From positions 2,046,001 through 2,110,000 of the forward strand of contig JAJHOH010000001.1 of the NCBI GenBank assembly GCA_021651055.1: a stretch of 64,000 nucleotides of DNA, written 5' to 3'. Made by a program: the position numbers and the translations under genes. The number at the start of each line of letters is the position of its first letter. Position 1 is the stretch's first letter. The DNA comes from Candidatus Manganitrophus morganii. Its GTDB lineage: Bacteria; Nitrospirota; Nitrospiria; SBBL01; Manganitrophaceae. Below the pieces are notes generated by a model, which was not told the origin of the DNA, did not search any database, and was given only the letters and a program-made list of their open reading frames with translations. Positions 12,541-30,948 of this stretch are shown here, piece by piece.

Positions 12541-14058
12541 ATGAATATCGCGATTCTAATTGGTGTGTCCCAGTACAAGGTGGCTGCGCCTCTTCCGGCC
12601 TGCGCAGCAGATGTGGAGCAAATGCGCCGATTGCTTACGGCGACGAATAAATATGATGACATTTGTTGCTTAACAGCACAAACCAGTTCTGGTCCGCTAA
12701 AAGAAGCACTCCGAGGCTTTTTCGCTAAGTACCAATCGGGTGCTGAAATTGGTGAAGCCTTAATATATTTTTCTGGTCACGGTGTTTATCATGCTGATGC
12801 ATTGTTCTGCTGTTCTGACTTTGACCCGAATCGTCCCGCTACAACGTCAATTAGCAACGAGGAACTCGACGACTTACTGCGTAGTGTCAAACCCATCGTA
12901 GCTGTCAAAGTTATTGATGCATGCCAATCCGGTTCACCCTACATTAAAGATGCTAGTGCAGGCTTTGAAAAAGCTTTGCGGACAAGTCGTCTTAGTTCAT
13001 TCATTTGCATGGCCTCTAGCAGACAGGACCAGTCATCCTATGCTAGTGTCAATGCTAGCGCGTTCACAGCCAAGTGGATCGATGCAGCACTCGATAAGCA
13101 GAGTGGGACCGTACTGTATCGAGATATTCAGGCTGTGCTCGCCGATGCTTTTGTTAATAACCCTGATCAAACCCCCTTTTTCGTCACCCAAGGAACTGGA
13201 TTAGAGATCTTCGCTGCAGTCACTGAAGAAATGCGGAAGATCGTAACGGAACGCTCCAAATCTTCGACGGTGGCAACACCTCAAGATACGGTTGTAGATG
13301 TGATCTCAGCAGAAGTCGCTCGCCTTGACAATGCTTATGTCTCATTGGAGGAAGCGTGTCGTGCTATCGAGCAAGCAGGTCAAGATCTTGCCTCTGAACC
13401 AATTAGTGACCCGCTCGTTTCACATTTTTATGAAAAGCGGATATCTCAAGATGGCAAACTCGTAACCCTTCCTCGCATACGGGCTGTAGCCAATTTTGCC
13501 GCAGAACAAGGATGGGCCAAGAAGTATTTTGTGAGAGTCATTCAAGAACAGTATCGTGAAAGAGTACCGAAAGAACCATTTAAGGTTTGGGGAGCAGGTA
13601 TTTTGAGCACCCATCTGGCATCCAACTTAGGAGACGAAGATTATGTGCTCCAAACTCGCTCTCGTCCCGGTCGCCTTGAATCTACGCAGACGCTTCCGTT
13701 TGAAGTTGCAGAAGTCGTTTTTGAAGCAAAAAAGCACCCCGCTCTCAAAGCTTTTTCTTTATATATTGGGATAGTTCACTCATTAACGGAAGTAATGGTC
13801 CTTTCTGCTATCGTACAATTTATACAAATAGGGTGGTCCGAAAGGTCTCCCCAACTGTCCGACGTTCAGTGGAAGTACCAAAGTTTCCCTTGGAAAGATG
13901 TGGTGTCGCAACCGAAGTTACTCTGGCAGGAGGTACTTGACCGGAGCCAGGATACTATTAAGGCTTACCTAGAAGGGTTAATTCCAAAAAAAGAAGATTC
14001 GCAGGCGAAAGTATCCACGAATGATCAAAAGACTTCACCTCACCAGCAAAAGGCGTAA
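12541..14058 (+). CDS. Orphan caspase-like (peptidase C14) protein
   Basis: The N-terminal ~220 residues are a caspase/metacaspase fold: MNIAILIGVSQY start, catalytic His80 in YFSGHGVY and Cys128 in VIDACQSG. Residues ~245-505 match no family I recognise; they contain a helical middle (about 260-300) and a hydrophobic stretch near 410-435. Codon usage and base composition are visibly AT-richer than flanking genes, a sign of transfer. Bacterial caspase-like proteases often act as effectors in anti-phage or suicide systems, coupled to a sensor domain; the C-terminal part could be that sensor. No partner gene is adjacent, so this may be a single-gene system. No strong ribosome-binding site is seen. 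Confidence 0.85.
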   Translation: MNIAILIGVSQYKVAAPLPACAADVEQMRRLLTATNKYDDICCLTAQTSSGPLKEALRGFFAKYQSGAEIGEALIYFSGHGVYHADALFCCSDFDPNRPATTSISNEELDDLLRSVKPIVAVKVIDACQSGSPYIKDASAGFEKALRTSRLSSFICMASSRQDQSSYASVNASAFTAKWIDAALDKQSGTVLYRDIQAVLADAFVNNPDQTPFFVTQGTGLEIFAAVTEEMRKIVTERSKSSTVATPQDTVVDVISAEVARLDNAYVSLEEACRAIEQAGQDLASEPISDPLVSHFYEKRISQDGKLVTLPRIRAVANFAAEQGWAKKYFVRVIQEQYRERVPKEPFKVWGAGILSTHLASNLGDEDYVLQTRSRPGRLESTQTLPFEVAEVVFEAKKHPALKAFSLYIGIVHSLTEVMVLSAIVQFIQIGWSERSPQLSDVQWKYQSFPWKDVVSQPKLLWQEVLDRSQDTIKAYLEGLIPKKEDSQAKVSTNDQKTSPHQQKA

Positions 14059-16599: not shown

Positions 16600-18495
16600 T
16601 TAGTGGGGTCGCTTACTCGGTATCGGTTCGGAAGTTCGATCGCTCGTCCGGGAGGGAGCTTGGGCCGGCGCCTGTTGCATCGGCGGGGTCGCCGGACCGC
16701 CGTATTGGAGAATCAGCCCCCCCTTGCCGACGGCCCACCCCCGGGCGGGAGAGGTAAAGTAGATGCTGTTCAGCCGCTGCGTCACCCCGCTGTCGCGCTC
16801 CGCCCACGACTTTCCGCCATCTTTCGTATAGAGGATCGTTCCGAGATCGCCGACCATCCATCCCTCCTGCCCCTGCATCGAGAGGTCCCAAAACGGCATC
16901 TTCGTTCCGGTGTCGATCGGCGCCCAGCTCTTTCCGCCGTCCTCGGTCATCAAGAGGGTCCCCTCCGACCCGACCACCCACCCCCGGTTCGGCGGACGAA
17001 AGAGGATTCGCGTGAAGGTTGCCTTCGTCGGAAGCCGGAACGGGGTCCATGTCACGCCGCCGTCTTCCGTCTGAAGCAGGGTCCCCCCGGTGCCGACGAT
17101 CCACCCTTTCCGCTCGTTGAGGAAAACGATGTCGGAGAGACCGGCGGTGGTATCGCTGAGTTGAAAGTCCCACCGCTTTCCGCCGTCATCCGTCCGAAAG
17201 ATCAACCCCGTCTCGCCGACGACCCATCCGATCTTGGGGGTCAGAAAAAAAATCCCTTCGAGGCTCGCCTCGGTCAACTTCTGCCGGCGCTCCCAGCGTT
17301 TTCCCCCATCGACCGTGTGGAGGAGAAGCCCATTGCCGCCGACCGCCCATCCCTCTCGCGGCGAGGTGAAATGGACCGACAGGACCCACTCCTCCGTGCC
17401 GCTCTCTTGAGGCATCCAGCTCCGGCCGCCGTCGTTGCTGTGGAGGATGGTGCCGGTCTCCCCGGTAATCCAACCGTGCCGCTCATCGACGAAGTGGACC
17501 CGAAAGAAACGGTCGGTGAAGCCGTTGTTCTGCGTCTCCCAGCGTTTGCCGCCGTCGCGCGTATGGACGATCACCCCCCCCCATCCGACCGCCCACCCGT
17601 GGCGGTCGTCGCCGAACGAGAGCCCTTCGAACGTTTTGTTCACCGCGGCGTCGACCTTCTCCCAGGTCGCCCCGCCGTTTTCGGTTTTCAGCATCGTTCC
17701 CGATCCGCCGGCGGCCCAGCCGATTTGCGGAGAGGCGAATTGCACGCCGATGAGAAGATGTTCCGTACCGCTTTGCTGCGGCTGCCAGCGTTTGCCGCCG
17801 TCGGTCGTCCGGAGGATCGTTCCCTCCCGGCCGACCGCCCAGCCCCGGAGCGGATCGATGAAGAAGATCGCCTCCAGCGCGGCGGTCGTCCCGCTCCTCT
17901 GCGCCGTCCACTTTTCGCCCCCGTCCTGCGTCTGAAGGATCATCCCGTTCCACCCGGCAGCCCATCCCCGTTGCGGATCGATGAAGAAGACCTCCAGAAT
18001 CGGACCGGTCTGCCCGCTTTTTTGAACCTCCCAACGCCGGCCGCCGTCCGCGGTATGGAGAATCACCCCTTTGTCGCCGACGATCCAGCCGTTTGATCGA
18101 TCGGTGAAGTAAACATCCCAGAGCCAGACCTGTTCCGGATTCCGCTGCTCCTCCCAGCTTCCGCCGCCGTCGGCCGTATGGAGGATCTTGCCGGTCCAGC
18201 TGATCGCCCAGCCGTGGCGTCGATCGGAAAAATGAAGCGAGAAGAACCGCTCCCCTTTCTCTTTGTATTGCGCCCGCCAGCTCGCGCCGCCGTCGGCGGT
18301 GTGGAGGATCGTTCCATCTCCCCCCCCGGCCCATCCCTCGCTCGCCGAGACGAAATGGACCGCCCAGAGGCCGTTCGACGTCACCTCCCCCTGCTGAACC
18401 GACCACCCCCCCTCCGCCGCCGCGACCGTCCCGGCGAAAATCGGGAGGAGAAAACCGGCCAAAACCGTGTAAAAGAATAGACTTTTCTTGATCAT
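16600..18495 (-). CDS. Secreted 14-repeat Ycf48/BNR-type beta-propeller protein
   Basis: The 631-residue protein starts with a signal peptide (KKSLFFYTVLAGFLLPIF...AAAEGG) and then has 14 consecutive repeats of about 41 residues with the pattern hxFxDxxxGWAVGxxGTILxTxDGGxxW. This is the photosystem-II stability factor (Ycf48)/BNR repeat. Fourteen repeats match two seven-bladed propellers. A Pro/Ala/Gln-rich tail ends the protein. Non-photosynthetic bacteria use such proteins outside the inner membrane, probably as assembly or binding scaffolds; the partner is unknown. It is followed by a polytopic membrane protein gene. Confidence 0.93.
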   Translation of the reverse strand: MIKKSLFFYTVLAGFLLPIFAGTVAAAEGGWSVQQGEVTSNGLWAVHFVSASEGWAGGGDGTILHTADGGASWRAQYKEKGERFFSLHFSDRRHGWAISWTGKILHTADGGGSWEEQRNPEQVWLWDVYFTDRSNGWIVGDKGVILHTADGGRRWEVQKSGQTGPILEVFFIDPQRGWAAGWNGMILQTQDGGEKWTAQRSGTTAALEAIFFIDPLRGWAVGREGTILRTTDGGKRWQPQQSGTEHLLIGVQFASPQIGWAAGGSGTMLKTENGGATWEKVDAAVNKTFEGLSFGDDRHGWAVGWGGVIVHTRDGGKRWETQNNGFTDRFFRVHFVDERHGWITGETGTILHSNDGGRSWMPQESGTEEWVLSVHFTSPREGWAVGGNGLLLHTVDGGKRWERRQKLTEASLEGIFFLTPKIGWVVGETGLIFRTDDGGKRWDFQLSDTTAGLSDIVFLNERKGWIVGTGGTLLQTEDGGVTWTPFRLPTKATFTRILFRPPNRGWVVGSEGTLLMTEDGGKSWAPIDTGTKMPFWDLSMQGQEGWMVGDLGTILYTKDGGKSWAERDSGVTQRLNSIYFTSPARGWAVGKGGLILQYGGPATPPMQQAPAQAPSRTSDRTSEPIPSKRPH

Positions 18496-18973: not shown

Positions 18974-19150
18974 ACCGACCGGCCCTTCTCGTCGGAAGCG
19001 ATACAAAAATGTCGGCCGGCCGGCCGCTGTTTCTTTCCATTCGATTCCAAGCCGACCTAAATCACACGAAAAATCAATCGATCCGACCGGTCCCTCCCCC
19101 CGGCATGGTTGTTGCTCTATATTCGTTCAACGATAACGACGTCTGCGGGC

Positions 19151-19205: not shown

Positions 19206-20309
19206 ATGCGGGAAGGAATCCTTCCACCGAAATTTGCCGACAAATTTTTCCGGATCGATTTTGATGCAATGCCGCTTCCGATCCTCTCCCTCTATCCGAT
19301 CCCCCCTTCCCTCGCGCTGGAGGAGGTGACGCTCGATCTCGCCGGGCTCGAGCAGCATCCCCGGCTGGTCTCCTGGCCGATGCTGCACGAGCTTCCCCGC
19401 GTGAAGCTGAAGGTGCCGTTCATCTGCCAGATCTTCAACTGGGTCGAGGAGGTCGAGTGGGAGGGAATCCGCCTCGTCGATCTGCTCGACTCCTTCAAGA
19501 TCGACACCCACCCCGACGGCTACTTCGCTTTTTACTCCCGCGACCGGGTCTTCTTCGAAGGGCTCTCACGCGATGAAGCCCGCGATCCGCGCGTTCTGCT
19601 GGCATATGGATTAAACGGGTCGCCCCTCCCCGAGGTCCACGGCGGGCCGCTCCGATTGGTCGTTCCCTTTCTTCAAGGTTATAAGAGTGTCAAGTGGGTC
19701 CATACGATCCATGCCTTCCGGCACGATCCGGTCGGAATCAAGCGGCTTCTCGCCCAGAGCCCGACCGGCCAATTGAACGACAAATGGCGAGGGCAATTTC
19801 AGATTGTCCCCCCGGCGGGAAAATCCGGAGATCCCCCTCCGGTACGGAGCGAGATCGCGCCACTCTCCACCCCCCCGGCTGCGATCTCGACTCCGGAACC
19901 CCCGGTGCACGGCCAGGTCGATTCGGTCCCCAAAAAGAAACAGCCGCCGCGGCAGGCGACATTAAAAGAGGTCGTCGCCCTGGTTCGCCCCGGCAAGCAG
20001 CTGGCGACCCGCCAGGCGCTGGAAGCGGCCGGCATCTATTCGTATACGACCGCGACGGTCCTCGGCCGGAGCCGCCAGCGGGGCCTTCGATTTCAGTCGG
20101 AAAAAGGGGAGCCGGTCGCAATCAAGTTTATGCCGAAACAATATTTCTCGATCATGATCGACGCCGGCCGCGTTCCGGCGGTGATCGCCGCCTTAATGAA
20201 AGCGAACCGGACCGGAAAGGGGGCCTACGGCGACGGCAAGATCTTCATCGTCGACATCGACGACGCCATCCGGATCAGCACCGACGAGCGGGGGGGAGAG
20301 GCGATCTGA
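19206..20309 (+). CDS. Fusion of SUOX-type molybdopterin domain and P-II domain
   Basis: Residues about 20-185 form a sulfite-oxidase-type molybdopterin-binding domain: the Mo-ligand Cys74 in PFICQIFNW followed by EWEGIRLVDLL, then VHGGPLRLVVP (144-154) and GYKSVKWV (158-165). After a Pro-rich linker (about 200-248), residues 253-367 form a P-II signalling domain starting KEVVALVRPGK and ending GKGAYGDGKIFIVDIDDAIRI. The T-loop region is atypical and lacks the uridylylated Tyr of GlnB. No signal peptide, so cytoplasmic. AAAGGGG precedes the ATG. It heads a run with P-II, nitrite reductase and another P-II gene, suggesting P-II-controlled Mo-enzyme or Mo-cofactor use in nitrate/nitrite assimilation. 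Confidence 0.88.
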   Translation: MREGILPPKFADKFFRIDFDAMPLPILSLYPIPPSLALEEVTLDLAGLEQHPRLVSWPMLHELPRVKLKVPFICQIFNWVEEVEWEGIRLVDLLDSFKIDTHPDGYFAFYSRDRVFFEGLSRDEARDPRVLLAYGLNGSPLPEVHGGPLRLVVPFLQGYKSVKWVHTIHAFRHDPVGIKRLLAQSPTGQLNDKWRGQFQIVPPAGKSGDPPPVRSEIAPLSTPPAAISTPEPPVHGQVDSVPKKKQPPRQATLKEVVALVRPGKQLATRQALEAAGIYSYTTATVLGRSRQRGLRFQSEKGEPVAIKFMPKQYFSIMIDAGRVPAVIAALMKANRTGKGAYGDGKIFIVDIDDAIRISTDERGGEAI

Positions 20310-20325: not shown

Positions 20326-20658
20326 ATGAAGCTGATTCGCGCGATCATCCGCCCCGAGCGGGAAGAGGCGGTCCTGGGCCGTCTGGAGGCGGCCGGACTT
20401 TTTGCCGTCACGAAGATGCCGGTGCTCGGGCGCGGGAAGCAACGGGGAATCCAGGTGGGGCCGGTTCATTACGACATCCTCTCCAAGTCGATGCTCCTGC
20501 TCATCGTCAGCGAGGAGGAGTATCCCCGGGCGATCGCCGCCATCGAGCAGGGGGCCGAGACGGGGCACCCGGGCGACGGGAAGATCTTCGTCCAGAAGGT
20601 CTCGGAGAGCTACACCATCCGGACAGGGACAAAAGAGACGGAGTCGGTGTCGGAGTGA
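20326..20658 (+). CDS. P-II family protein (NifI-like T-loop), first copy
   Basis: The 110-residue protein begins MKLIRAIIRPEREEAVLGRL and has the B-loop TGHPGDGKIFV. The T-loop region GRGKQRGIQVGPVHYDILSK resembles NifI-type P-II proteins rather than GlnB/GlnK: it lacks the YRGAEY segment with the uridylylated Tyr51. It should bind ATP/ADP and 2-oxoglutarate and touch a target enzyme, most plausibly the reductase encoded 8 nt downstream. It is 16 nt after the fusion gene, so both are in one operon. Confidence 0.93.
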   Translation: MKLIRAIIRPEREEAVLGRLEAAGLFAVTKMPVLGRGKQRGIQVGPVHYDILSKSMLLLIVSEEEYPRAIAAIEQGAETGHPGDGKIFVQKVSESYTIRTGTKETESVSE

Positions 20659-20666
20659 AGGAATCG

Positions 20667-23600
20667 ATGACAAATCAATCTAAACTGCGGGTGGTGGTGA
20701 TCGGAAACGGGATGGCGGGGATCGCCGCGGTGGAGGCGCTCCTGAAAACCGGCACCCCCCTTTCGATCACCCTCTTCGGCGATGAGCCGCAGACCCACTA
20801 CAATCGGATTCTCCTCTCCGATCTCCTCGCCGGAAAAACCGAGGCGGAGCGGATCTTCACCCGGCCGCGAAACTGGTATGCCGAGCGGGGGATTCATGCC
20901 CAACTCGGCCTTGCGATCTCCGCCGTCGACCCGGCGGCCAAGTATGTGACGAATGCGGACGGCGGCGCCACCCCTTACGACGCGCTCATCCTCGCCGTCG
21001 GCGGGGTCCCTTTCGTCCCGCCGATTCCGGGCCGGGAGAAGAAGGGGGTCATTCTTTTTCGAACGCTGGAAGAGACGGAGCGGATCGTCGCCGCGGCCCG
21101 GTCGAGCCGGCGCGCCGTCGTGATCGGCGGGGGGCTGCTCGGCTTGGAGGCGGCGCGGGGGCTGATCAACTACGGGGTGTCGGTCACCGTCGCCCATCTC
21201 GGCGACCGGCTGATGGAGCAGCAGCTCGACCCGGCCGGGGCCTCTCTCTTGAAAAGGGAGCTCGAACGGATGGGCATCCGGGTCCTGCTCAAAACCACCG
21301 CGGAGGCGATTCTTGGAGAAGAGCAGGTCGCCGGCGTTCGCCTCACCTCCGGAGAGGATCTCCCCGCCGGGATGGCGCTGATCTGCACCGGCATCCGGCC
21401 GAACCTGACCCTCGCCCGGCAGATCGGATTGAGGACGAATAGGGGAATTCTCGTCGACGATCGAATGGAGACGAGCCTCCCCGGGATCTTCGCCGTCGGG
21501 GATGTCATCGAGCATCGGGAGAAAACCTATGGGCTGATCGCGCCGTTGAAAGAACAGGGGGAGGTCCTCGCCGATGTTTTGACCGGGAAAGATCAGCGGC
21601 GTTATGGCGGGACCCTCTGTGCCACGACCCTGAAGGTCGCCGGGATTCATCTCACCTCCGCCGGCGATTTTATCGGAGGACGGGGGGCGGAGGAGCTGAT
21701 CTTCGTCGACACGGAAAAGGCGATCTACAAAAAATGTGTGATCCGCCAGAACCGGCTGGCGGGGATGATCCTCCTCGGCGACAACAAAGACAGTCCCCGG
21801 CTCTTTAACCTGATCCAGAAGGGGGAAGACATCGGCGAGATCAAATCGTCGCTCCTCGGAAATGTCTCGGTCGAAGGGGGAGCGGGGGCCGCGAGCGGCG
21901 TGGCGGCGCTGCGGGAGACCGACCTGGTCTGCAACTGCAACAGCGTCACCAAGGGGACGATCCTCGCCGCCATCCGGGAGAAGGGGCTGAAGACACGTGA
22001 CGAAGTGGCCGCCTGCACACAGGCGACGACCGGCTGCGGAAGTTGCAGTCAATTGGTGGAAGATCTTCTCGGCGAAGCGACAAAGGCGCCGGCCAAGACG
22101 CCTGCAACGGCGATCGTTGCGGAGAAGTCCCCCACAAAAACAGGACCGGGGGCGCTCAAGACGCTCGACCTGGAGAAGATCAAACAAGAGGGGTTGGGGA
22201 TCGATTTTGACCGGCTGCGGGAGGAGGGGACCCGCGCGTTGGCGCCTGAAGACTACTACCGTCTGAAGACCTACGGCATCTGCAGCCAGAAACATCCCGG
22301 CTACTTCATGCTCCGGATCCGCATCCCGGGAGGGACGGTCACGCATACGCAGCTGATGGGACTGGCCGACCTCGCCGAGGTCCACGGCCGGGGATGGGGA
22401 CACCTCACCGTCCGCCAGAGCATGGAGCTGCATTGGATCCGCGTGGAAGATTCGTTGGAGATCTTCGAGAAACTGGAGACGATCGGTCTTTCGACCCGCT
22501 CCGCCTGCGGCCACACGTTGCGGAACGTCATGGCCTGCCCGCACGGGGGGGTGGCGTCCGACGGCCTCTTCGATGTCCAGCCCTGGGCGCAGCGGATCAC
22601 CGATTATTTCGTGAAGCGGTCGGACCTGATCAACCCGACGATGCCGAACCGCCTGAATGTCTATTTTGCCGGATGCCGGGCGTGCGCCTCCGATGCCGCG
22701 ATCAACGACATCGGGTTCGTCGCGGTCGAGCGTAGAACCGAGGGAGGGGATCGGCATCTCGGTTTCGAGCTCTGGGTTGGAGGAAGCTTGGGGGCCCATC
22801 CGATGCTCGGATTCAAGCTGAAGGAGTTTCTCTCCCCGCCCGATGCGCTGACCGCCTGTCAGGCGATCTTCGCGATTCACACCAAGTTCGGCAACCGAAA
22901 CAAAGCGAAGTCGCGGCTGAAATATCTGATCGAGCAGTGGGGCCGGGAGAAATTTATCGAGATGTTCGAGAAGGTCTTCCTGGAGAAACAGAATCTTCCC
23001 GAGAACCGGGAGGTCCCCCTCCCTTCTTTGGCCGACCCGGGACGGCGACCCCCTCTCTGGAAGCGAATCGGAAACCGCCTCAATCCGGTTTCGATCCCGG
23101 CCTCTCCCGGCATCGCGCCGCAGCGGCAGCCGGGCTATCTCCGTCTGACCGTCGCCGTTCCGCTCGGCGAGCTGCGCGCGGAGCAGCTCCGAGCCGTCAG
23201 CCGGATTGCGCGGCGGCATGGAAACGGGATCGTCCACTTCACGAAAGACCAAAATCTCGCCTTCCACTGGATTCCGGTCCGGAAGATCGGCCGGGCCGTT
23301 CAGGCCTTGAAAGCGGCCGGCTTGTCGCTCAAAGGAAAAGAGAGCGGCCCCGCGCTGCTGGCCTGTCCCGGCACCGAGTTCTGCACCCTCGCCGTGACCA
23401 ATTCGCAGGGGGCGGCGCGCGATCTATTGCGCTTCCGTCCGGAAGCGCCGGAGAAGGCGGCCCTCTTTCAATCGATCTCGATTCACCTCTCCGGCTGCCC
23501 CAACAGCTGCGCCAAACATCAGGTCGCCGACATCGGCCTCGCCGGAACGATGACGCCGGTCGGCGAGCTGCGGCGGTTTTCTTATCAGCTCTTCCTCGGC

Positions 23601-23855
23601 GGCCAGGTCGAGGGGGGGGTTCGCTTGGGGGCGATGGTCCGAAAAGGGATTACCGAAGAGATGGTCGTGCCGACCGTCGACGCGCTGCTCGGAATCGTCG
23701 CGACCGATCGTCTTGCGGGCGAATCGTTTCAGGAGACCGTCCTGCGGCTCGGCGCCGACCAGGTCGCATCACTTCTCGAAAAAGAGATCGGCCCCTTGGC
23801 GCCCGAATTGTCGGATGCGATCACGATGATTCCCGATTTGATCGAAGCACGATAA
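20667..23855 (+). CDS. NirB-NirA type fusion: NAD(P)H-dependent siroheme nitrite reductase
   Basis: The 1062-residue protein joins a NirB-like N-terminus to a full-length NirA/SiR-like siroheme unit. Residues 1-400 are a FAD/NAD oxidoreductase (VVVIGNGMAGIAA, VVIGGGLLGLEAA, GIFAVGDV). A BFD-type 2Fe-2S domain follows, with Cys422, 424, 457 and 460. After a Pro/Thr-rich linker (470-495), both ferredoxin-like/siroheme repeats are present (about 540-770 and 815-1060). The 4Fe-4S/siroheme Cys set is C900, C906, C944 and C948 (ACPGTEFC, SGCPNSC). It should reduce nitrite to ammonium in the cytoplasm with NAD(P)H. The ATG at 20667 follows AAGGA; the upstream open frame is a shadow. Confidence 0.9.
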   Translation: MTNQSKLRVVVIGNGMAGIAAVEALLKTGTPLSITLFGDEPQTHYNRILLSDLLAGKTEAERIFTRPRNWYAERGIHAQLGLAISAVDPAAKYVTNADGGATPYDALILAVGGVPFVPPIPGREKKGVILFRTLEETERIVAAARSSRRAVVIGGGLLGLEAARGLINYGVSVTVAHLGDRLMEQQLDPAGASLLKRELERMGIRVLLKTTAEAILGEEQVAGVRLTSGEDLPAGMALICTGIRPNLTLARQIGLRTNRGILVDDRMETSLPGIFAVGDVIEHREKTYGLIAPLKEQGEVLADVLTGKDQRRYGGTLCATTLKVAGIHLTSAGDFIGGRGAEELIFVDTEKAIYKKCVIRQNRLAGMILLGDNKDSPRLFNLIQKGEDIGEIKSSLLGNVSVEGGAGAASGVAALRETDLVCNCNSVTKGTILAAIREKGLKTRDEVAACTQATTGCGSCSQLVEDLLGEATKAPAKTPATAIVAEKSPTKTGPGALKTLDLEKIKQEGLGIDFDRLREEGTRALAPEDYYRLKTYGICSQKHPGYFMLRIRIPGGTVTHTQLMGLADLAEVHGRGWGHLTVRQSMELHWIRVEDSLEIFEKLETIGLSTRSACGHTLRNVMACPHGGVASDGLFDVQPWAQRITDYFVKRSDLINPTMPNRLNVYFAGCRACASDAAINDIGFVAVERRTEGGDRHLGFELWVGGSLGAHPMLGFKLKEFLSPPDALTACQAIFAIHTKFGNRNKAKSRLKYLIEQWGREKFIEMFEKVFLEKQNLPENREVPLPSLADPGRRPPLWKRIGNRLNPVSIPASPGIAPQRQPGYLRLTVAVPLGELRAEQLRAVSRIARRHGNGIVHFTKDQNLAFHWIPVRKIGRAVQALKAAGLSLKGKESGPALLACPGTEFCTLAVTNSQGAARDLLRFRPEAPEKAALFQSISIHLSGCPNSCAKHQVADIGLAGTMTPVGELRRFSYQLFLGGQVEGGVRLGAMVRKGITEEMVVPTVDALLGIVATDRLAGESFQETVLRLGADQVASLLEKEIGPLAPELSDAITMIPDLIEAR

Positions 23856-23874: not shown

Positions 23875-24183
23875 ATGAAGATGGTTCAAGCGATGGTCCG
23901 TCCGGAGAAAGAAGGGGAGGTGATCGCCGGGCTGGAGAAGGCCGGCTTCATCTCCCTGACGCGACAGGCGGTTTTCGGCCGGGGACGGCAGCGCGGCATT
24001 CAGGTCGGCCCCGTTCGTTATGAAGAGCTTCCCAAAGTTTGGCTGATGCTCGTGGTGGAAGCGGAGGAGGTCGATCGGGTCGTCGATACGATTAAAATCG
24101 CGGCCCGGACCGGAAATCCGGGCGACGGGAAGATTTTTGTCTCCACCTTGGCCGAGGCCCGCTCGATACATCCGTCCACCTGA
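23875..24183 (+). CDS. P-II family protein (NifI-like T-loop), second copy
   Basis: The 102-residue protein starts MKMVQAMVRPEKEGEVIAGL, has the T-loop GRGRQRGIQVGPVRYEELPK and the B-loop TGNPGDGKIFV. It is closely similar to the P-II gene upstream of the reductase and also lacks the GlnB uridylylation Tyr. GGAAGGAG precedes the ATG, 19 nt after the reductase stop, so it is the last gene of the operon. Paired NifI-like proteins act as hetero-oligomers in nitrogenase control; here the pair flanks a nitrite reductase, so a comparable on/off control is a reasonable inference. Confidence 0.93.
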   Translation: MKMVQAMVRPEKEGEVIAGLEKAGFISLTRQAVFGRGRQRGIQVGPVRYEELPKVWLMLVVEAEEVDRVVDTIKIAARTGNPGDGKIFVSTLAEARSIHPST

Positions 24184-25486: not shown

Positions 25487-27739
25487 CTACTTCCCCTCGA
25501 ACAGCCGGACAAAATCGACCTGGACCCTGCGCATGTGATGTTGGATCTCTTCTTCAAGCTCTTTTCTTCCCCGCTCCCAATCCCGCTGTCCATACCCCAT
25601 TCTCCGCGCCAGGAAGGTGAACTCCTCGGTCCGAACGTCGGGAAGAATCAGATCCTTCGCGTGACCCCGGACTATCCGGAGCGCGTCGATCAGGCTCCTC
25701 AGAAAAAGATATCCGGCCTGAAAATCGATCCAGATTTCTTTCGGAAGGATCTTCAGCCGGCGGAGCCCTTCGAGCGCCGCGAGGGTATGCGGGGTCCGCA
25801 GGGCCGGATGCCGATGGCCGTGCACGATCTGGAGATATTGGACGGCATACTCGATGTCGAGGAGCCCCCCGGCGCTGTACTTCACGTTGATCTTCCCCTC
25901 CGGAACCAGTTCGTTCCGCTGACGCTCTCTTAACGCCAGCGCGGTCTTTAAATCCCACGGCGTCCCCCCGTAGACGAACCGGTCGCGATGGGCCTCGACC
26001 TTCCTGCCCAATGCTTCGTCGCCGGCGACCGACCTTAATTTGATCAGCGCCTGGCGCTCGAAGGGGGCGGCCTCGCCGGCCGGCGCGTAATAGGCGGTCA
26101 GCTGAGAGAGCGGGTTCGCCAAAACCCCGGCGTTTCCATGCGGCCGCAACCGCGTATCGATATGAAAGATCCCCTCCTGCTTTGCCGTAATGAAATGGGT
26201 AATCTGTTGCGCCAGCTTCTCAAAGAAGAATCGGTTATCGATCGGCTCCCGGCCATCGGTCTGGCCGGCTCCTTCGTAGACAAAGAGGAGCTCGATATCG
26301 GAGGCATACCCCAGCTCGGCCCCGCCGAGTTTTCCCAGTCCGCAGATGGCGAAGGAAGCGGGGCGTCGGTTTTCAAGGCGGGGCGCGCCGTATCGCTTCA
26401 CCAGATCGGCCCGGCAGAGAAGATCGGTCTCTTCAATGACCACCTCCGCGAGATCGGTCAGCGCCTGAGAGAAATCGGTCAACGTCAGGGAAGGCTCGAG
26501 AAGATGCTTGATATCGATCCGGAAGAGCTCCCGGTCTTTGTATTCATTCAAGATCCGTTTTTGCTCTTCCAGGCCGGTTCCTTTCCGAAGCTCCCGGCGC
26601 AGGCCCCGGCGAAGCGCCTCTTTCCCGATCCGAAGCTTCTTTCCTTTGTACTGATCGAGGAGGGGGAGGAGGTTCTCGAACTGGATCCGGAGAAAATCTT
26701 CCCACAAGAAATCGGAGGTGCCGAAGAGGCGGGCGAGGAGATGAAGCGTTTCCCCCTTCTTCAGAAAGGAGATCATGGAACTCGACTTTTCTTCTTCGAT
26801 GATCTTGTCGAGCAGTTGATCGAAGTGGGCGATCGCCTTCGTCGGATCGGGAGAGCGGACCAGGAAATGAGTGAACTGCTTGATGAGGGCGGCCGAGATC
26901 CGAAGCGCTTTTTTCTCCCGCTCTCCGGCGATCTTCTTTCCCCGTCGGTCGGAGATGTAGAACCGGTCTTGGATCTCGGCCCCGGCATTTTTGATCTGGA
27001 CCTTATGAATATAGATGCCGCGCAGCGAGAGGGCGTTGGAGAAGGCGTAGAGAAAGCCGGGGGTATCCTTACCCTGAATATCGAGAATCGTCCACCGTCC
27101 CGAGCTCCGGTTGTCGAACCGGACCTTCAGCGGCTGCAGAAGCCCCCCCTCCGGAACCTTCGCTTTAGAGAGATAAGCGATCAGATGGCGATTGACCTGA
27201 TCCCTCGCCTCGTTGAACTTGTCTTGGTCGAGAAGACGGACGAGCGCGACGAGCGCTTCTTCGAGCCGCTCCCTCCGTTCGGCATCGAACGCCTCTCCCG
27301 GAATCAGGGCGGTCTGAAAAACATCGACGATCTTTCGGGCAGCCGGCCGCTTTGGGCGCCCAAACCCGCTTCTTTCCGGCGGGGCCTCTTCATCCGAAAA
27401 AGTATGGACGTTTCCCGCCTGAATATCGAGACCGAACGACGCGAGCAGGCCGCAGAGGATCGAGAACTCCGAGAAATAATCGAACGCGACGACGGTGATC
27501 TCAAAGTCCCGGTCTCCTCCGGAAGCGATTTTCAAGGCGGCGGGACGATCGCGGTCAAGACGGGAGGCCATTCCGATATGATCGGCGATCTCCGTGGCGG
27601 AATAGAGGGAGAAATAATCCCGATCCATCCGGGAGAGAAAGTCTTGAACCGTCTCTCTCGGCGCGGAAAGCGCCTGTAGTTTTTTTTCTAATTCTTTGAA
27701 GCCCAATCGCTCCTCACGCGCATCGTCGACCGGGCTCAT
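25487..27739 (-). CDS. GlnE adenylyltransferase (AT) half with N-terminal GlnD-like ACT domains
   Basis: The protein (750 residues from 27739) begins with two ACT-like domains (about 78-145 and 215-285; the second has WTILDIQGKDTPGFLYAFSNAL), as at the C-terminus of GlnD. The C-terminal part is one GlnE nucleotidyltransferase unit: CGLGKLGGAELGYASDIELLF (split: GKLGGAELGYASD then IELLF; D481 and E483), GIFHIDTRLRPHGNAG, and a PII-uridylyl-like helical tail. It resembles the C-terminal, adenylylating half of GlnE. The metal pair is D-x-E rather than D-x-D. A TATAAT overlaps the ATG at 27739, so translation may start at TTG 27706, which has GAGGAG ahead. The other GlnE half is at 29269. Confidence 0.85.
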   Translation of the reverse strand: MSPVDDAREERLGFKELEKKLQALSAPRETVQDFLSRMDRDYFSLYSATEIADHIGMASRLDRDRPAALKIASGGDRDFEITVVAFDYFSEFSILCGLLASFGLDIQAGNVHTFSDEEAPPERSGFGRPKRPAARKIVDVFQTALIPGEAFDAERRERLEEALVALVRLLDQDKFNEARDQVNRHLIAYLSKAKVPEGGLLQPLKVRFDNRSSGRWTILDIQGKDTPGFLYAFSNALSLRGIYIHKVQIKNAGAEIQDRFYISDRRGKKIAGEREKKALRISAALIKQFTHFLVRSPDPTKAIAHFDQLLDKIIEEEKSSSMISFLKKGETLHLLARLFGTSDFLWEDFLRIQFENLLPLLDQYKGKKLRIGKEALRRGLRRELRKGTGLEEQKRILNEYKDRELFRIDIKHLLEPSLTLTDFSQALTDLAEVVIEETDLLCRADLVKRYGAPRLENRRPASFAICGLGKLGGAELGYASDIELLFVYEGAGQTDGREPIDNRFFFEKLAQQITHFITAKQEGIFHIDTRLRPHGNAGVLANPLSQLTAYYAPAGEAAPFERQALIKLRSVAGDEALGRKVEAHRDRFVYGGTPWDLKTALALRERQRNELVPEGKINVKYSAGGLLDIEYAVQYLQIVHGHRHPALRTPHTLAALEGLRRLKILPKEIWIDFQAGYLFLRSLIDALRIVRGHAKDLILPDVRTEEFTFLARRMGYGQRDWERGRKELEEEIQHHMRRVQVDFVRLFEGK

Positions 27740-27766
27740 TATACAGGATCGGACAGACCCCATCAA
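27738..27766 (-). promoter_or_regulatory. Promoter of the ACT-GlnE gene
   Basis: On the minus strand TTGATG (27766-27761), 17-nt spacer, perfect TATAAT (27743-27738). The -10 overlaps the ATG at 27739, arguing for a downstream TTG start at 27706. Confidence 0.55.
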
Positions 27767-27785
27767 ATCAGGCCTGCAAAACGAA

Positions 27786-27814
27786 TTGCAGAGAGGAGAA
27801 AGGAGGGGTATAAT
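27786..27814 (+). promoter_or_regulatory. Promoter of the DEAD-box helicase gene
   Basis: TTGCAG (27786-27791), 17-nt spacer, TATAAT (27809-27814), 18 nt ahead of the ATG at 27833. It is back to back with the minus-strand promoter of the ACT-GlnE gene. Confidence 0.6.
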
Positions 27815-27832
27815 TCGGCTCGGTGAGATTTT

Positions 27833-29089
27833 ATGAAGTTTGAAAAATTTCAGATTTCGGAAGCGATCAAAAAAAACCTGGACCAGCTCGGTTTTGTTCG
27901 AACGACCGACATCCAATATAAAGCGATTCCGTCGATTCTAAGCGGGGAAGACGTGCTCGCCATCGCGCAGACCGGGACAGGCAAAACCGCCGCTTTTGCC
28001 ATTCCCATCGTGCACAAAATCGACAGCGAAAAAAGGAGTAAACGTTCCACCGGGATTCGATGCATTGTTCTCGTGCCGACGCATGAACTGGCTTTACAGA
28101 TTTGCGGGGTGTTCACGAGTCTGGCCAAGCAGACCAAGGTCAAAGCCTACGCGGTGTACGGCGGGGTCGCGCAAGACCCGCAGATTCAAAAACTTCAGGA
28201 CGGCATCGACATCTTAATCGCGACGCCCGGCCGAATGTTTGACCTTATCAGTCAAGGTTATATCCAGCTCAATGCGGTCGAGATCCTGGTGCTCGATGAG
28301 GCCGATTTGATGCTCGATTTGGGTTTTATCGGCGATATTCAATCCATTAAAAAGAAACTCACCCGAAGACACCAAACCCTTTTTTTCTCCGCCACCATCA
28401 ACAAGGTAATAAAAAAACTGGCCTATTCCCAGGTGAAAAACAGCGCGATCCGTATTCAAATTTCTCCGGAAAACCTCGTTTCTAAAAACGTGGCGCACTA
28501 CGTCCTGTTTGTCGAGATGGATGACAAGCGGTTTTTTCTGGAGCGCTTTATCGCGGATCATCCCGAAAGCAGAATCATCGTTTTTGTCCGGACACGGGTG
28601 CGGGCCGAACGGGTGGCGAAGGCCATGGCACGCGTGGGAATCGAGACCTTTACCATTCACGGCGAAAAAGACCAGCAGGCGCGTTCGGATGTCATGAACC
28701 GGTTTAAAGCAGGGGAATGCCGCATTCTCATCGCCACCGACATCACCGCGCGCGGTATTGATATCCCCGATGTGCATTACGTGGTGAATTATGATTTGCC
28801 GGAGTTGGCTGAGAACTATGTGCATCGGGTGGGCCGAACCGGGCGCGGCTTTAAAAAAGGGGAGGCGCTTTCCTTTTGTAGCCGGGAGGAGAAACCCCGC
28901 CTTGAGGAAATTCAACAATTTTTAGAAAAAGAAATCGAAGTCATCCAAGTCGGGAAAACAGAGTATGCCCATACCCTCAAATACCCTACAGAACAGACGC
29001 TGGAAGAGTTGATCAAAGAAATAAAAGACTGGGAAGCAGGCAGGAAAAAGAAAAAGCACATCCCTCAAAAGGCCAAAAAAAAGAAGTGA
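27833..29089 (+). CDS. DEAD-box ATP-dependent RNA helicase (RhlE-like)
   Basis: The 418-residue protein has the whole superfamily-2 motif set: the Q motif region DIQYKAIP, motif I AQTGTGKTAAF, Ia PTHELALQ, Ib TPGRMFDL, motif II DEAD (VLDEADLMLDLGF), III FFSATI, and the second RecA domain with IIVFVRTR, ATDITARGIDIPDV and HRVGRTGRG. A short Lys-rich tail ends the protein. The length is the minimal helicase core, as for RhlE. It unwinds RNA in ribosome assembly or mRNA decay. It is less GC-rich than its GlnE-type neighbours and sits between the two GlnE halves, so it may have been inserted there. Confidence 0.93.
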   Translation: MKFEKFQISEAIKKNLDQLGFVRTTDIQYKAIPSILSGEDVLAIAQTGTGKTAAFAIPIVHKIDSEKRSKRSTGIRCIVLVPTHELALQICGVFTSLAKQTKVKAYAVYGGVAQDPQIQKLQDGIDILIATPGRMFDLISQGYIQLNAVEILVLDEADLMLDLGFIGDIQSIKKKLTRRHQTLFFSATINKVIKKLAYSQVKNSAIRIQISPENLVSKNVAHYVLFVEMDDKRFFLERFIADHPESRIIVFVRTRVRAERVAKAMARVGIETFTIHGEKDQQARSDVMNRFKAGECRILIATDITARGIDIPDVHYVVNYDLPELAENYVHRVGRTGRGFKKGEALSFCSREEKPRLEEIQQFLEKEIEVIQVGKTEYAHTLKYPTEQTLEELIKEIKDWEAGRKKKKHIPQKAKKKK

Positions 29090-29268: not shown

Positions 29269-30948
29269 GTGTCCCCTTTCGATCCAAAAAATGAGTCCGA
29301 TCCGCATCGGAAGGAGCCTCCCCCCTCCACGAAATCGCCGTTGCAGCTGAAGGATCTTCTCCTCGCCCCCCAGCTGAGCGGAGAGGAGGTCGCTTCTCTG
29401 CTCAGCCCCTATGGATTCGCAGAGATCAAGCGGGCCGATACCAACCTTCAGCTGATTGCAGAAGAACCGCGGGTACGTCAGTTCTTCGCCGAAATTCTGG
29501 AGGATTTCTTAAGCGCCCTGGGTCAAACAGCCGAGCCCGATCGGGGGCTGAACGACTTCGAGCGATTCACCCGGGCCGCCATCAGCAAGGCCCAACTCTT
29601 TTCGTATCTCCGGGACGATCCCGCCACCGTATCGAGAGCCGCCACGATTTTCGGCGGAAGCGCGTTTCTGGCCGAAATTCTGATTCGGAATCCGGAATAT
29701 TTTTATTGGGTTTTCGACCCGGCGGTGCTGAAGGGGCGGCGGAGCCGGCGGGAGATCGCGCGGGACTTCTCGCAGGCGCTGCGGCTCCTTAAAACAAAGG
29801 AAGATCGGCTCGATCTCCTTCGCGCCTTCAAACGAAAGGAGATCCTCCGGATCGGTGTGCGCGACCTCTTGCGGGAGGCTTCCGTAGAGGAGACTCTGAC
29901 GGAGCTCTCCGAGCTGGCCGAGGTTCTGATCCAGAAGGCGTATGAGATTTGCGACCGGGGCTTGCGCGAGCGGTATGGGATTCCTTCCTACCGGGACCGC
30001 TCGGGGAGGCGGGTCCGGATCGGATTCACCATCATCGCCATGGGAAAGCTGGGCGGCGGCGAGCTGAACTTCAGCTCCGACGTCGATCTTCTCTATCTTT
30101 ACGCGACCCGCGCCGGCCGGACCTCCGGTGTTCGAGGAGAGGCGGCAAGCCGGATCGCGAACGCCGACTACTTCCGGCGGCTCGCCCAGCAGGTCACGGC
30201 GGCGTTGAACACGGCGACCGGCCAGGGCTACGTCTATCGCGTCGATCTACGGCTTCGCCCCGAAGGGGAAAAGGGGCTGATCGTCCAGCCGCTCCAGGGC
30301 TACCGGCGCTACTACGCCACCCGCGGCGAGACCTGGGAGCGGCTCTCCCTGCTGAAGGCCTGGCCGGCGGGGGGGGATCGTTCCCTCGGCCGGGAATTTC
30401 TGAAAAGGGTGATCCCCTTTCTCTACGGCAAACCGTTCGGCCTCCCCGGATTGCAGGAGGTCGGCGCGTTGAAAGCGCGGATCGACGAAAAGATCGACCT
30501 CTCGAAACAGACCGAAAACCATGTCAAGCTCGGCCGGGGAGGGATTCGCGAGATCGAATTTATCATACAGGCGTTGCAGATTTACTTCGGAGCGAAACAC
30601 CCCGCGATCCGGGAGCGAAACACCCTGAAAGCGATCGAGAAGTTATCGCGATCCGAATTTCTCTCCAAGGAGAACGCCTGTCACCTGAAGGAGGCTTATC
30701 TCTTCTTAAGGGATGCGGAGAACAAGCTTCAGGTCGTGAACGATTCGCAAACCCACCTTCTGCCGATCGATCCAAGGGGGGTCCGGGCCTGCGCCCTTCG
30801 GCTCGGCTACCGGGATGAAGCGACCACGTTTGCGCAAGATCAATTGATGCGCGATTATCGCGCCCACACCGGCCGGGTCCACACCCTTTTTCGTCTCCTC
30901 TTCGAGACGCCGTCAGAGTGGCCCGCCTTTCAGAAGAATCCCCGCTGA
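29269..30948 (+). CDS. GlnE adenylyl-removing (AR)-like half protein
   Basis: The 559-residue protein is one GlnE nucleotidyltransferase unit. The core AMGKLGGGELNFSSDVDLLY (D271, D273) and YVYRVDLRLRPEGEKG with ETWERLSLLKA match the N-terminal, deadenylylating half of classical GlnE. A helical domain with GRGGIREIEFIIQ and HPAIRERNTL follows. Classical GlnE is about 950 residues with both halves fused; here the second half is a separate gene on the other strand at 25487. The start is uncertain: GTG at 29269 lies inside a mobile-element-like motif (GATACGGTGTCCCC) and has only a weak ribosome-binding site; TTG at 29341 is an alternative. Confidence 0.85.
   Translation: MSPFDPKNESDPHRKEPPPSTKSPLQLKDLLLAPQLSGEEVASLLSPYGFAEIKRADTNLQLIAEEPRVRQFFAEILEDFLSALGQTAEPDRGLNDFERFTRAAISKAQLFSYLRDDPATVSRAATIFGGSAFLAEILIRNPEYFYWVFDPAVLKGRRSRREIARDFSQALRLLKTKEDRLDLLRAFKRKEILRIGVRDLLREASVEETLTELSELAEVLIQKAYEICDRGLRERYGIPSYRDRSGRRVRIGFTIIAMGKLGGGELNFSSDVDLLYLYATRAGRTSGVRGEAASRIANADYFRRLAQQVTAALNTATGQGYVYRVDLRLRPEGEKGLIVQPLQGYRRYYATRGETWERLSLLKAWPAGGDRSLGREFLKRVIPFLYGKPFGLPGLQEVGALKARIDEKIDLSKQTENHVKLGRGGIREIEFIIQALQIYFGAKHPAIRERNTLKAIEKLSRSEFLSKENACHLKEAYLFLRDAENKLQVVNDSQTHLLPIDPRGVRACALRLGYRDEATTFAQDQLMRDYRAHTGRVHTLFRLLFETPSEWPAFQKNPR

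Follow-up and report, generated by a model that had tools for sequence, protein, structure and literature searches.

We found that a single gene of Candidatus Manganitrophus morganii, at 19206..20309 (+) of the 64 kb stretch of DNA analysed here (the window), encodes a 367-aa protein in which a SUOX-type Mo domain is joined through a linker to a NifI2-like P-II domain. It heads an operon that serves nitrogen assimilation. We consider it rather probable that the product is an assimilatory nitrate reductase of the SUOX family that is gated by the NifI-type P-II sensor attached to it, where both the nitrate activity and the gating by 2-oxoglutarate are predictions. Our confidence is held back because some genomes hold both this enzyme and a NasA-like one, and because of a change to Ser103 in the P-II domain. 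To our knowledge, SUOX-type enzymes have so far been known as nitrate reductases only in plants, algae and fungi. The broader proposal is that they constitute a fourth kind of prokaryotic nitrate reductase in several phyla, covalently gated by NifI-type P-II in Nitrospirota and some other lineages, so that a nitrogenase-type regulator pair would control nitrate assimilation at the enzyme level; here we see the balance as even.

The open reading frame spans exactly 19206-20309, and both Pfam matches of its product exceed the curated cut-offs: Oxidored_molyb (PF00174) at residues 35-174 (E 7.9e-26) and P-II (PF00543) at residues 254-361 (E 3.1e-15). The SUOX-family Mo-binding domain comprises aa 1-205 (19206..19820, +), the Pro-rich linker aa 206-252 (19821..19961, +) and the P-II domain aa 253-367 (19962..20306, +). 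In an AlphaFold2 monomer model (mean pLDDT 73.7), residues ~11-201 adopt the SUOX fold, with Z scores of 16.6 to 2blf, 15.1 to the Pichia nitrate reductase 2bii and 14.9 to MsrP 1xdy, and residues 250-364 adopt the P-II fold (Z up to 13.5). The linker has ~46 residues, 26% of them proline, and a pLDDT below 50 over residues 206-248; in relatives it ranges from 43 to 72 residues. The preliminary description of this DNA had already read Mo and P-II domains, with a Pro-rich linker between them, in one protein, which the Pfam and fold matches to both parts bear out; the C-terminal part, whose agreement with P-II profiles had been named beforehand as the point on which that reading could fail, matches PF00543.

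Membership in the SUOX family is indicated by the PF00174 match, the fold and the Mo-ligand cysteine, all present in the fused protein and in line with a 30-sequence family alignment. Cys74 (codon 19425..19427, +), the predicted Mo ligand, is the only cysteine of the protein. It is invariant in 30/30 aligned relatives, together with some 40 further positions, and a profile alignment pairs it with Cys98 of the plant sulfite oxidase 1ogp. This residue had been singled out earlier along with a GYKSVKW motif, which indeed begins at residue 158. Neither the Pfam result nor the AlphaFold2 model contains the C-terminal dimerization domain of the sulfite oxidase and eukaryotic nitrate reductase groups, and heme or flavin domains are absent from the SUOX part. 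Among single-domain SUOX proteins the best equivalog model is MsrP (NF003767), at 48 bits far under its cut-off of 207. The SUOX part is probably cytoplasmic, since the N-terminus, as read from the sequence, has no Tat signal (no twin-arginine or hydrophobic stretch).

A sigma-54-type promoter, CGGCATGGTTGTTGCT (19101..19116, +), lies 105 bp before the start codon of the fused gene. The pattern YGGCAYGNNNNTTGCW has its single match in the 64 kb at this site, with 0.02 expected, and 11/16 loci, the window included, have a similar site at a distance of 91-139 bp before the fused gene. Downstream of the fused gene come a free NifI1-like P-II of 110 aa with a short T-loop (20326..20658, +; PF00543 E 9.5e-22), a nitrite reductase of 1062 aa (20667..23855, +) and a second free NifI1-like P-II of 102 aa (23875..24183, +; PF00543 E 6.6e-20). 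The operon had been described beforehand as headed by the fused gene and containing two more P-II genes and a nitrite reductase, and this is what we observe, in the order P-II, nitrite reductase, P-II. The reductase joins a NirB-type NADH/FAD/[2Fe-2S] module to a NirA-type siroheme nitrite reductase; its domains are Pyr_redox_2, Rubredoxin_C, Fer2_BFD and NIR_SIR (two stretches), and it matches TIGR02374 and NirA-family models. The architecture is unusual in itself, as the NirA-type siroheme module follows a NirB-type NADH/FAD/BFD input and replaces the usual siroheme half of NirB.

The closest PDB sequence to the fused P-II domain is 9p1x_G (E 2e-18), and that to the first free P-II is 9p1x_H (E 2e-28; runner-up 5e-17). 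The PDB describes both chains only as P-II family proteins, and we take them, from their sequences and from general knowledge, to be NifI2 and NifI1 respectively. In a phylogenetic tree the fused P-II domains group with 9p1x_G in a NifI2-like clade (support 0.977), both free P-II genes of the operon fall on the 9p1x_H side with weaker support, and the two GlnB proteins that the genome also encodes are placed elsewhere. Because a NifI2-like fused domain stands beside two NifI1-like genes, the operon, judged by sequence similarity, holds a NifI1/NifI2-type set; NifI1-like genes accompany the fused NifI2-like P-II wherever the contig continues. NifI1 and NifI2 are P-II proteins that control nitrogenase. 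As in that system, a P-II with a short T-loop and one with a longer T-loop share an operon with their presumed target enzyme; unlike it, the window operon encodes a nitrite reductase and a SUOX enzyme but no nitrogenase, and one of its P-II proteins is fused and carries Ser in place of Arg103. As the genome has no NifH-grade match (best PF00142 score only 53 bits), the P-II proteins of the operon are probably not serving nitrogenase; with no such gene and with a nitrite reductase encoded in the operon itself, a nitrogenase link of this set was set aside.

At the 2-oxoglutarate site of the fused domains, Gln39 is present in 16/16 and position 58 is Lys in 13, including the window protein, and Arg in 3. 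At the ATP site, the GDG of the B-loop and Arg101 are present in 16/16, but the Arg103 through which P-II contacts ATP is replaced by Ser in 16/16. The B-loop TGKGAYGDGK (aa 336-345; 20211..20240, +) has two inserted residues, and insertions of one to two residues at this place characterise the fused family; this loop had been given as GYGDGKIFI in the preliminary description, which has to be corrected to TGKGAYGDGKIF. Tyr51, the usual uridylylation residue of P-II, is absent from the fused domains. The retention of Gln39, Lys58, the B-loop and Arg101 makes a coupling of the fused enzyme to 2-oxoglutarate and ATP plausible, with the Ser at position 103 as a reservation. The first interpretation of this gene stood as regards the fusion and its links to the nitrite reductase and to two more P-II genes. 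The simple homotrimer that it expected P-II to force upon the enzyme part is less certain, because the fused P-II is NifI2-like and travels with NifI1-like genes, and NifI1/NifI2 act as a hetero-oligomer. That interpretation gave the Mo domain no role of its own, whereas the gene context suggests the nitrate reductase of a nitrate-assimilation operon.

We propose that the cytoplasmic single-domain SUOX molybdoenzyme most likely reduces nitrate to nitrite, like eukaryotic nitrate reductase, and that the flexible linker ties it to the NifI2-type P-II domain. Together with the operon's NifI1-like proteins, this domain would form a trimer or hexamer responsive to 2-oxoglutarate and ATP/ADP. Under nitrogen shortage, with high 2-oxoglutarate, the enzyme, and probably also the neighbouring nitrite reductase, would stay active, and under ample nitrogen supply the P-II complex would act as a brake on the Mo domain or on its redox partner; the direction of this effect is proposed by analogy with the action of NifI1/NifI2 on nitrogenase. 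Electrons would probably be supplied by the NADH/FAD/[2Fe-2S] part of NirB::NirA, and by ferredoxin in relatives that have NirA only.

The gene neighbourhoods of relatives point to nitrate assimilation. These relatives were collected by a scan of genome contigs, which gave 39 related loci, and by a survey of 245 Nitrospirota genomes, which added more. A nitrite reductase lies no more than 5 kb from the SUOX-family gene at 36 of 39 loci with enough sequence, and nitrate/nitrite transporter genes (NarK-type MFS or NrtABC) are found in 35/45 loci. All 8 SUOX genomes among the 245 Nitrospirota carry such a cluster, although contig L068 stops before the reductase. The clusters of relatives also include Amt and NifA-like regulators, and at six loci genes of Moco synthesis (MoaA, MoaE, MoeA, MoaC/B). 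At two loci (L020:12792-15755 and L070:309-4282) MoaA, MoaE, MoeA and MoaC/B-like genes come directly next in the operon; the small gene between MoaA and MoaE there (103-119 aa) matched no NCBIfam model. A nitrate transporter together with a nitrite reductase, the gene-cluster criterion for an assimilatory nitrate reductase, is thus found in relatives, and in the window species NrtABC is encoded elsewhere in the genome, away from the operon. Two MFS queries found no NarK-type transporter in this genome, and the window operon has no MFS gene. Paralogous SUOX genes of the same genome have no nitrite reductase nearby, a weak control given only ~1.5 kb of flank per gene.

No classical nitrate reductase (Nas, Nap or Nar) was found in the single-contig genome of the window species, since it encodes just four PF00384 proteins, one FdhA-like, two NuoG-like and one QrcB-like; a nitrate transporter and a nitrite reductase are present without it. 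In a second single-contig genome (G052) the one PF00384 protein is 923 aa long, and its length and weak score against NasC agree with NuoG. NasA-like candidates that are full-length and have no N-terminal extension of the FdhA type were seen in 5/33 operon genomes: those of G003, G004, G007=G115 and G012 cannot be assigned clearly to either the FdhA or the NasC models, and that of G008 is NapA. One locus (L023) holds both SUOX and NasA-like genes. A NasA-like gene is nearby in 7/10 Nitrospirota nitrite-reductase loci that lack SUOX versus 1/29 SUOX loci 12 kb or more in length, with a Fisher p of 5.7e-5 that ignores shared ancestry and comes from loci sampled unevenly and in different ways. 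This pattern looks as if one nitrate reductase had taken the place of another. A genome of the same order (G172; L084:3965-4348) encodes a free P-II with the Ser103 and B-loop insertion of the fused type, without a SUOX half and with a NasA-like gene in the cluster; judging from these features, it likely lost its enzyme half.

The fusion is present as a single intact frame in 15 assemblies (the window, L012-L015, L017-L021, L033 (partial), L066, L067, L070 and L072), whose records are labelled Manganitrophaceae, Troglogloeales, Leptospirillum, Lindowbacteria, Acidobacteria and Nitrospirota. Nine full-length fused relatives in the alignment share 56-85% identity with the window protein. Records from Chloroflexi/SAR202 and Elusimicrobia (L036-L047 without L041 and L043) encode the two parts as adjoining separate genes. 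Other Nitrospirae (L026-L028, L048) have an unfused SUOX gene, with a pair of P-II genes after the reductase. In Chloroflexota the SUOX gene is rare: of 301 genomes surveyed, the centre genome alone gave a match. These separate arrangements are what an assembly or frameshift error joining two genes would lead one to expect, but the frame is intact in the 15 assemblies, the linkers vary and the fused P-II domains form one clade (support 0.965), so that the probability of such an error is negligible. The fusion is genuine, and the sequencing error set in advance as its test is ruled out. A single fusion event would fit, because every fused P-II domain sits in that one clade. Frame-broken copies in two MAGs (L016 and L022) look like assembly noise. 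In the complete Ca. Manganitrophus GAC4 record (L022:7857-12647) the SUOX and nitrite reductase genes are both split between frames, apparently by uncorrected sequencing errors.

The substrate of a SUOX-family protein cannot be fixed from sequence alone, and other readings of the Mo domain have to be weighed. It might be a different P-II-regulated reductase of nitrogen metabolism, for instance one that acts on sulfoxides or N-oxides like MsrP, or one that protects the nitrite reductase, and the rank of MsrP as best equivalog and the NasA-like genes in some operon genomes agree with this. We consider it rather unlikely, given the strict pairing of the SUOX gene with nitrite reductase and nitrate transporters, the several near-complete genomes without other nitrate reductases and the NasA-for-SUOX pattern. 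The domain is small, has no redox partner domain of its own and is a separate gene beside the nitrite reductase in relatives, from which one could imagine a non-catalytic Moco-binding or docking module that brings P-II to the reductase; the invariance of Cys74 and some 40 other positions in 30 sequences and the Moco-synthesis genes in some relatives' clusters make this improbable. Still less credit can be given to a sulfite oxidase or other sulfur enzyme next to a sulfite reductase: SUOX and NIR_SIR domains are indeed common to sulfur enzymes, but the surroundings consist of nitrate transporters, P-II sets, Amt, NifA-like regulators and a sigma-54 promoter, and the best matches of the reductase are the NirB and NirA models.

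A P-II-gated nitrate reductase of the SUOX family would resemble known enzymes only in part. With eukaryotic assimilatory nitrate reductase (2bih/2bii) the protein shares the SUOX fold, the predicted step before nitrite reductase and a nitrate transporter nearby; unlike it, it lacks the dimerization, cytochrome b5 and FAD domains and carries P-II, and identity is 18%. As in MsrP (YedY; 1xdq/1xdy), the Moco domain is not followed by a C-terminal dimerization domain, but the protein differs from MsrP in its probable cytoplasmic location, its low score against the MsrP model and its operon. NasA/NasC/NarB occupy the same predicted position in the pathway, and NasA-like genes occur in related clusters without a SUOX gene; however, they have an unrelated fold (Mo-bisPGD, [4Fe-4S]) and were not found in the genome of the window species.

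A 2020 review recognises only Nar, Nap and Nas among prokaryotic nitrate reductases, and it names cytoplasmic single-subunit SUOX-family enzymes as an uncharacterised group (PMC7759655). In Leptospirillum ferriphilum, nirA-like genes of unclear role were reported and no nitrate reductase was found (PMC5418355). In the open-access papers that we searched, we saw neither a fusion of P-II with a molybdoenzyme nor a bacterial nitrate reductase of the SUOX type described. If correct, our proposal would give a concrete function to one group of these uncharacterised enzymes, account for nitrate assimilation in lineages without a recognised nitrate reductase and change annotations in many uncultured genomes. 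It would also mean that NifI-type P-II controls a target other than nitrogenase, with sensor and enzyme in one chain, where a built-in sensor of nitrogen status could switch a molybdoenzyme directly. The fusion also offers a direct route to examine P-II gating of an enzyme.

Other genes of the window may be mentioned. Just downstream of the operon there is a GlnE/GlnD-type adenylyl/uridylyltransferase-like pair (25487-27916, -, and 29269-30948, +); both members match PF03710 and PF08335, and the pair is apparently a split GlnE. Upstream, 12541-14058 encodes a caspase-like protein (Peptidase_C14; the EACC1-associated caspase model scores under its cut-off), and the protein at 16600-18495 (-) contains about a dozen YCF48/BNR repeats.
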